Of a stretch of DNA of 48,205 nt, positions 29,662 through 30,025 are shown one piece after another. The stretch comes from Candidatus Thermoplasmatota archaeon. GTDB taxonomy: Archaea; Thermoplasmatota; SW-10-69-26; JACQPN01; JAIVGT01. The translations under genes and the position numbers were made by a program. The stretch lies in the NCBI GenBank assembly GCA_035541015.1, contig DATLFM010000053.1:1-48205 (forward strand), read 5' to 3'. Within the stretch, counting starts at the first letter, position 1, and the number at the start of each line of letters is the position of its first letter. A model generated the notes under the pieces. The model was not told where the DNA came from and searched no databases. It saw only the letters and a list, made by a program, of their open reading frames with translations.

Positions 29662-29730
29662 GGACAAGCACCCGGCCGCGGGGGAGATGGCGTTTGTTCC
29701 GACTCCCTCGCACGCCCAGGTTTTAGGGTC

Positions 29731-29738
29731 ATAAAATC
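29731..29738. promoter_or_regulatory. TATA-like element between the secreted protein and the hairpin region
   Basis: ATAAAATC on the plus strand (GATTTTAT on the minus). On the minus strand it could drive the secreted protein ending at 29152. On the plus strand an initiation about 27 nt downstream would fall near 29759, just before the first of the three hairpins. Confidence 0.4.
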
Positions 29739-29763
29739 GGCGAGGCGCGCGACGGCATTCCGC

Positions 29764-29890
29764 GCGACAGGTGCCCGGCGCCGCTGCGCGGCGCCGACCT
29801 GTCGCTTGGCGCTCGTGGACTTCGCTCTCGCGCGGCTGCGCCGCGCGAGTCGCTCGTCCACGGCGCACTTCGCGGCGCCTTTGGCGCCGC
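29764..29890. repeat. Three consecutive GC-rich hairpins with 3-nt loops (possible ncRNA or repeat element)
   Basis: Hairpin A (29764-29805): outer stem GCGACAGGT/ACCTGTCGC (9 bp), inner stem GGCGCCGC/GCGGCGCC (8 bp), loop TGC. Hairpin B (29815-29861): outer stem GTGGAC/GTCCAC (6 bp), inner stem CTCGCGCGGC/GCCGCGCGAG (10 bp), loop TGC, with a 6x6 internal loop. Hairpin C (29872-29890): GCGGCGCC/GGCGCCGC (8 bp), loop TTT. All pairs are perfect Watson-Crick matches, read directly. The block ends 4 nt from the tRNA-Phe 3' end. It could be a structured RNA transcribed on the plus strand from the TATA at 29731, a processing or termination element for the tRNA, or a dispersed repeat. No known family recognised. 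Confidence 0.55.
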
Positions 29891-29894
29891 TCAG

Positions 29895-29968
29895 TGGGAC
29901 GCGCCGGATTTGAACCGGCGACCTTCTGATCTTCAGTCAGACGATCTCCCAGACTGATCTAGCGTCCC
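29895..29968 (-). tRNA. tRNA-Phe (GAA)
   Basis: A complete 74-nt cloverleaf on the minus strand. The acceptor GGGACGC pairs with GCGTCCC, with discriminator A. The D stem is GATC/GATC. The anticodon stem is TCTGA/TCAGA around the loop CTGAAGA, so the anticodon is GAA. The T arm is GCCGG-TTCAAAT-CCGGC. CCA is not encoded and there is no intron. The promoter is the minus-strand TATA box at 29997-30004. The 5' acceptor strand is also part of a long inverted repeat (29962-30025). Confidence 0.95.
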
Positions 29969-30025
29969 GGAAACGGCCGGTAACTTTGGCGCCCATGCAT
30001 AAACGTTCCGGCCGTTCCGGGACGC
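29962..30025. repeat. 19/18-nt inverted repeat flanking the tRNA-Phe promoter
   Basis: The left arm GCGTCCCGGAAACGGCCGG (29962-29980) is the reverse complement of the right arm 30008-30025, except for one extra A. The 27-nt spacer 29981-30007 contains the TATA box of the tRNA (GCATAAAC, 29997-30004). The left arm includes the first seven bases of tRNA-Phe, so the right arm carries an inverted copy of that acceptor strand plus its 5' flank. Identity stops exactly at the acceptor-stem boundary. Confidence 0.7.

Follow-up and report, generated by a model that had tools for sequence, protein, structure and literature searches.

Short hairpin cassettes at the ends of archaeal tRNA genes look more like small mobile DNA than a new RNA gene

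Introduction

Why tRNA genes are favoured landing sites of mobile DNA is an old question, and the usual answer to it lies in sequence-specific integrases. Casposons leave a short target duplication at the 3' ends of tRNA genes. Non-coding units can be found there as well. The tyrT locus of E. coli holds the 178-bp tandem repeats of the rtT RNA, which stand 3' of the tRNA and carry copies of its 3' end, and this locus provides the precedent for an RNA derived from a tRNA trailer, or for a role of such units in the formation of the 3' end. In archaea, the attachment (att) sites of the elements that integrate through tyrosine recombinases are mostly in tRNA genes and usually measure 40-50 bp, and the 5' half of a tRNA is used only by pTN3-like integrases (PMC8371274). 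The double-hairpin elements of mitochondria are often found beside tRNA genes in some sponges (PMC2800124).

Here we discuss a group of short hairpin cassettes that share features with all of these systems. They came to light in one stretch of DNA of 48,205 nucleotides (the window), contig C53 in the draft genome of an archaeon (G000; 2,208,438 bases, 114 contigs, 96% complete). GatE domains with a GatD-like sequence adjoining are present in G000, and these we take to be an archaeal marker. A preliminary description of the window had drawn attention to three tandem hairpins next to tRNA-Phe, as a possible new structured RNA or dispersed element. The finding is real, and it is more interesting outside the coordinates of the window than inside them.

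The tRNA-Phe locus

The tRNA-Phe (GAA) gene that bears the window cassette was called by ARAGORN at 29894-29968 on the minus strand (Rfam RF00005, 67.2 bits), and the hairpins therefore stand directly 3' of it, adjoining the tRNA as had been described. Going outward from the tRNA 3' end, they are hairpin A (29872-29890, the third in forward order), hairpin B (29814-29862, or about 29811-29864 at its widest; the second) and hairpin C (29764-29805, the first), all taken on the minus strand and supported by folding, B and C also by the alignment of 11 copies and B by a pair table as well. All three are adjacent and have 3-nt loops, and the structure is above chance: none of 200 dinucleotide shuffles folds as well as the window hairpins on either strand, with z values of -6.42 for the plus and -8.25 for the minus strand.

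Hairpin A has a perfect 8-bp stem and an AAA loop (minus strand). The CACT and AGTG that flank it could pair with the 3' terminus of tRNA-Phe, and in other copies, as judged by eye, hairpin A begins inside the tRNA 3' end. Hairpin B consists of an outer stem (GTGGAC/GTCCAC), a conserved internal loop (GAGCGA/AGCGAA) that surrounds two G-C pairs, a 10-bp inner stem and the loop. Hairpin C has two 9-bp stems, the outer of which ends in GGT/ACC, with a conserved 3-nt bulge (GGC) between them on the 3' side of the minus strand. The perfect pairing that had been attributed to every stem is thus true of the third hairpin, while the first has its bulge and the second its internal loop; the aligned sequences show both to be conserved features rather than decay. 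The core said to be common to two stems is there, namely GGCGCCGC in hairpins 1 (C) and 3 (A). The body formed by B and C was matched at 29761-29863 (minus strand) by covariance model R1 with an E value of 1.1e-8, the window copy itself being one of the 11 copies used to build the model. Rfam at gathering score found only tRNA in the window and in six of the copy loci, and the stretch 1300-2600 of locus L062 had no match to Rfam at E values up to 1.

A second structure, missed in the preliminary description, lies on the other side of the gene. It is a near-perfect palindrome at 29962-30025 (plus strand, fold of -44.8 kcal/mol), which covers the 5' end of tRNA-Phe and the region upstream of it. 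This palindrome holds an inverted copy of the tRNA-Phe end (TTCCGGGACGC at 30015-30025) and, in its upper part, TTTATGCAT on the minus strand, which may be the TATA element of a likely promoter region of tRNA-Phe. It is the cassette's counterpart on the 5' side and lacks B and C.

A TATA-like box had also been noted before the first hairpin. The AT-rich 16-mer TTTTAGGGTCATAAAA (29721-29736, with no strand assigned) indeed stops 27 nt short of hairpin 1. For a minus-strand element this is the wrong place: the element folds better on the minus strand, and the 16-mer lies beyond its far end. On that strand the 16-mer could, with some uncertainty, serve the next gene, which starts at about 29661. 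An exact second copy of the 16-mer is found beside the cassettes of contig C93 (locus L214, about 1651); being beside both the window and the C93 cassettes, it is perhaps a shared promoter or operator.

Copies of hairpins B and C in the genome

The suggestion of a dispersed element is supported in G000. A DNA search gave partial copies, the best of them at C60, C55 and C103; the strict pattern GACGAGCGA-N(10-40)-AGCGANGTC gave 8 matches and its reversed control 0; and the covariance model matched 13 places with E values from 1e-12 to 0.003, of which 11 had built the model. Among the checks proposed for the hairpins were copies elsewhere and covariation, and both were found, the latter as compensatory changes in the stems. 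Among the 11 aligned copies the letters of the stems vary with the fold unchanged, and in most of them GAG flanks B and C. The outer stem of B reads GTGGAC/GTCCAC, GAGGAC/GTCCTC, GGTGAC/GTCACC, CGGGAC/GTCCCG and others in different copies; all six pairs are kept in 9 of the 10 copies in the pair table (the Lys copy was left out) and five pairs in one. RNAalifold finds changes on both sides in 8 of 22 pairs. For two copies the table of the inner stem lists 3 of 8 pairs, because its fixed positions put these copies out of register; both fold normally.

The copies keep close to tRNA genes. Ten of the 13 places are within 300 nt of a called tRNA (43 were called), 1.3% of the genome being that close to one (p 4.5e-17). 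Two further places, both on C101, flank the two sides of a putative intron-bearing tRNA, and the contig of the last place, C40, carries no tRNA. By eye, the C101 sequence (locus L111, about 2059-2331) can be read as a long-intron tRNA, GGGGCCA...TGGCCCCA, probably tRNA-Trp; it was called neither by ARAGORN, even when long introns were allowed, nor by the tRNA model.

Outside G000 the covariance model gave only four marginal matches in 59 relatives, and none in the nearest relative, G001. The match in G002 (E 0.047), at 36 nt from a tRNA, was for that reason retained, and those in G004, G005 and G024 (E 0.4-0.95) were judged to be chance. The strict B pattern matches in 6 of 389 genomes of the phylum, with the palindrome only in the eight matches of G000; the five matched stretches outside G000 lack it and were set aside. 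Beyond the class, the same pattern matched one genome contig (Qipengyuania) and four viral contigs, none with a palindromic centre, and these were judged to be chance. The pattern for hairpin C gave 0 matches in viral contigs, and plasmids gave one short match only, over the tRNA part. A looser B pattern, rejected, returned mostly coding noise in seven genomes, with control matches in all seven. Two adjacent hairpins that are dispersed and patchy by lineage, as in the double-hairpin elements, are thus what is seen here, with 13 matches in G000 and none in G001.

Copies of tRNA ends across the class

A second kind of repeat at these loci is a copy of the end of the tRNA itself. Among the 42 tRNAs of G000 (43 were called) in the flank listing, six have an exact direct copy of their own 3' end of 16-19 nt (Gly-GCC, Ala-CGC, Gln-CTG, Glu, Leu-GAG and Leu-CAA). 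Two of the six, tRNA-Glu and tRNA-Leu(GAG), bear a B/C body and a direct end copy together, which ties the B/C kind to the direct-repeat kind; the tie comes from these two tRNAs, since most B/C copies, like the window copy, have no direct repeat of at least 11 nt. A direct end repeat flanking an insert, as in the elements that integrate into tRNA genes, is found in the class and not at the window copy, where no direct repeat of the tRNA-Phe end of at least 11 nt was found. Direct 3'-end copies are present in relatives of G000, too, and mirror-image cases are found at tRNA 5' ends, where the repeated piece stops at the mature 5' terminus or continues upstream.

For a count across the class (G000-G006), an exact copy of the tRNA's own end of at least 12 nt was required within 400 nt, with other tRNAs masked; tRNA ends with less than 150 nt of flank were left out, and for G001-G006 only part of the listed tRNAs entered the count. 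Under this rule 52 of 371 ends have a direct copy: 11/81 in G000, 0/50 in the nearest relative G001, 18/66 in G002, 6/52 in G003, 3/61 in G004, 14/52 in G005 and 0/9 in G006. Five genomes of the phylum from outside the class gave 3/69 (G009 0/12, G010 0/16, G021 2/12, G029 0/16, G043 1/13), and the difference is modest (Fisher p 0.028). When each tRNA was set against the flank of another tRNA, copies of at least 11 nt were found in 82 of 2444 swaps, and in an earlier control, which took tRNA genes from loci in other genomes of the phylum, the figure at the same length was 0/30. The cases in G021 are clear, so the phenomenon goes beyond the class; inverted copies outside the class were found at 6 of 36 3' ends, with a swap mean of 1.05.

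Anatomy of the cassettes

Read from a tRNA end X, the order is a hairpin, often an inverted copy X', one or more hairpins (of the B type, sometimes also C), and X again. The cassettes measure about 60-280 nt and the inserts 40-324 nt (median 95 nt in 45 cases), and there is no gene inside, an integrase gene included. The second direct copy is typically 11-27 nt long and stretches from the T-loop as far as the 3' terminus or, antisense, from the D-arm as far as the 5' terminus. Of 58 inserts (among them five from outside the class, three in G021 and two in G043, and in the G043 Asn case the copy sits in a neighbouring tRNA), 28 hold an inverted copy of at least 8 nt of their own tRNA end, as against 4 with the end of another tRNA, and in 52 the predicted structure ends within 6 nt of the second copy. 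The inserts fold with a z of about -2.8, compared to -0.86 for control flanks; inserts with N or shorter than 35 nt were left out of the fold and strand analysis. A few inserts inspected by eye showed no terminal inverted repeats. Units can stand in tandem, with three at tRNA-Val(CAC) and two at tRNA-Phe of G002, and in this they match the tyrT/rtT type, which is marked by tandem units that repeat the tRNA 3' end. By eye, the second copy in G005 and G004 resembles a T-arm in which hairpins have opened the loop, and at tRNA-Thr(CGT) of G000 it is the D-arm of the 5'-side copy that is opened.

The closest view of an empty site comes from the tRNA-Leu(TAG)/tRNA-Met(CAT) pair, which is present in both G000 and G001 with a similar end of the upstream gene. 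The two tRNAs are 60 nt apart in G001, without cassettes, and about 720 nt apart in G000, where the gap holds two cassettes, one of them partial; this comparison of empty and occupied sites spans genera, so other changes are likely, too.

Some further repeats were seen in the course of this work. The 3' end of guaA is another known kind of integration site, and in G000 a guaA-like gene (translation, by eye; locus L055, C86:1000-3000, minus strand, about 740-1070) has its 3' end repeated three times; hairpins and an inverted piece separate the repeats as at the tRNA ends, here at a protein gene. Several tRNA genes of G000 are followed by recurrent intergenic palindromes, TTACTGCGCA..TGCGCAGTAA, and by runs of GTATACA/TGTATAC (e.g. 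L092, L086, L083; L079, L104, L101, L105); both are possibly regulator sites or terminators.

Which strand folds

In all 11 B/C copies the alignment-sense strand, which is the minus strand and the sense strand of the tRNA, folds better than its complement, and G-U pairs number 18 of 411 in the alignment sense versus 5 of 393 in the complement. The same was seen with the inserts at large. Of the inserts at 3' ends, 32 of 41 fold better on the strand reading outward from the tRNA (p 0.0004), and of those at 5' ends 15 of 17 (p 0.0023), with control flanks unbiased (90/173 and 96/202). At the 5' ends this outward strand is antisense to the tRNA gene. The bias, being the same on both sides, tracks the orientation of the element and not the transcription of the tRNA, which goes against a tRNA trailer co-transcribed with the gene and favours an element that acts as folded single-stranded DNA. 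It is on this asymmetry at both ends that the case against such a trailer RNA mainly rests; cassette RNAs with promoters of their own would be compatible with it. The source of the strand bias and of the tolerance for G·T could also be deamination of the exposed strand instead of selection.

Candidate enzymes

Only two tyrosine recombinase genes were found in G000, at C25:2044-2571 (L118) and C60:12406-12873 (L119), both directly 3' of a tRNA gene. None of 7 genomes yielded the Y1 (RAYT) transposase family (PF01797; control rings, 5/14), which was rejected as the resident enzyme. Cas1 (PF01867) was rejected likewise: it is absent from G000, G001, G002, G004 and G005, which include the genomes most loaded with cassettes (G000, G002 and G005), and present in G003 (partial), G006 and G021.

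What the cassettes may be

The cassettes look more like tiny mobile DNA than a new RNA gene. The best-supported reading, to which we give about an even chance, is that the window block is a copy of a non-autonomous hairpin insertion cassette directed at tRNA ends, whose mobility we infer. Such a cassette would be taken up as folded single-stranded DNA at a tRNA gene, which may be extruded as a cloverleaf during the uptake. With cuts at the acceptor end and close to the T- or D-loop, the piece between them would be duplicated, and the enzyme, perhaps a tyrosine recombinase, would be supplied in trans. The tRNA stays intact, which makes the insertion site a safe one. In support of this reading are the conserved B/C body beside many tRNAs of G000, the use of both tRNA ends and the tandem units. 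Against it, no excised form and no polymorphic site within a species was seen, no mobilising gene was seen inside the cassettes, G000 has just the two tyrosine recombinases, and the C40 copy has no tRNA nearby. The cassette at each tRNA, moreover, carries a piece of that very tRNA, for which a sequence-specific integrase is not an easy explanation. With both ends used in one genome and the tRNA's own piece at each, copying of the target seems to fit better than a fixed att site.

Other origins have to be weighed against the insertion cassette, and a possible one, though clearly less probable, is a mutational by-product. A tRNA gene would stall replication and the new strand would switch template at hairpins, leaving alternating copies X, X', X; the hairpins would be turning points, and there would be no element. 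The alternation of X - hairpin - X' - hairpin - X, the mirror image at 5' ends, the tandem units and the direct repeats that extend into the flank in some cases would all fit, but local copying would not give several tRNAs of one genome the same body, the sequence and fold of B/C are conserved in 13 places, and the nearest relative has copies at none of its 50 ends. Somewhat more doubtful still is a functional RNA, in which the tRNA transcript continues into the cassette and the trailer becomes a stable small RNA or has a role in 3'-end formation. The compensatory stem changes are what one would expect of it, as are the better fold of the tRNA-sense strand in 11/11 B/C copies and its G-U pairs (18/411 vs 5/393). 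The new structured RNA of the preliminary description is nevertheless disfavoured, since the elements also occur in reverse at tRNA 5' ends, where 15 of 17 inserts fold better on the strand antisense to the tRNA; Rfam at gathering score gives tRNA only, and the nearest relative and most tRNAs manage without cassettes.

It is improbable that the cassettes are remnants of full-size integrated viruses or plasmids that lost their interior and left two attachment sites. tRNA integrases do leave direct repeats that reach from the T-loop to the end of the tRNA, and both integrase genes of G000 adjoin tRNA 3' ends; the interiors, however, are conserved hairpins with an inverted copy of the tRNA's own end in 28 of 58 inserts and not random scars, and archaeal att sites usually measure 40-50 bp, with the 5' half used only by pTN3-like integrases (PMC8371274). 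Insertion of the casposon or Cas1 type, with a piece of the target duplicated as in the uptake of CRISPR spacers, is very improbable: the repeats of about 14-19 nt at tRNA 3' ends do resemble the casposon target duplication, but Cas1 is absent from the most loaded genomes, which largely refutes this origin unless the enzyme came on a lost element. K-turn, guide-RNA and integron attC readings were dropped on inspection by eye.

To return to the insertion cassette, its use of both ends of many tRNAs, each with the tRNA's own piece, points to recognition of shape rather than sequence. More tentatively, and in our view well short of an even chance, there may be a whole undescribed class of mobile cassettes without genes that would recognise the tRNA gene, on either of its strands, by its shape as a folded single-stranded cloverleaf. 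Insertion would then take place at the D- or T-loop side and copy the tRNA's own end, and one family could use many tRNA genes without a matching attachment site. The cassettes offer a compact set of sites for testing shape recognition, and they preserve, in archaea that have been little studied, an incomplete record of insertions. They can also mislead the annotation of tRNA fragments and small RNAs.

Comparison with known systems

The tyrT repeats of E. coli likewise lie 3' of a tRNA as tandem non-coding units and repeat its 3' end in every unit. They are confined to one locus, whereas here many tRNAs per genome and both tRNA ends are involved, with a conserved double hairpin and inverted copies in addition. 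Casposons and the CRISPR-type insertions of Cas1 (PMC4046053, PMC6614799) are a further parallel. The short target duplication at tRNA 3' ends is shared, but the most loaded genomes are without Cas1. The integrative elements of archaea that use tyrosine recombinases also target a tRNA gene, restore the tRNA and have a direct repeat of its end (PMC8371274); the cassettes differ in that they hold no integrase, have a median insert of 95 nt and occupy both tRNA ends in one genome. REP/BIME palindromes with RAYT (PMC12306157, PMC3733652) are likewise dispersed and non-autonomous, with probable single-strand mobility, while the present elements are specific to tRNA ends, carry target copies and belong to genomes of which 0 of 7 have the Y1 transposase family.

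The double-hairpin and repetitive hairpin-forming elements of mitochondria are likewise short, gene-free and made of G+C-rich or palindromic hairpins (PMC2800124, PMC5910586). They are also patchy by lineage and hold their stems, but they are mitochondrial, and duplicated tRNA ends are not described in the part of that source covered here (PMC2800124). No description of an arrangement like the present one was found in the portions of the literature searched, which is not proof of novelty. The anatomy of the cassettes joins what is known from separate kinds of elements: the repeats of the tyrT type, the double-hairpin elements and the target repeats of integrases.
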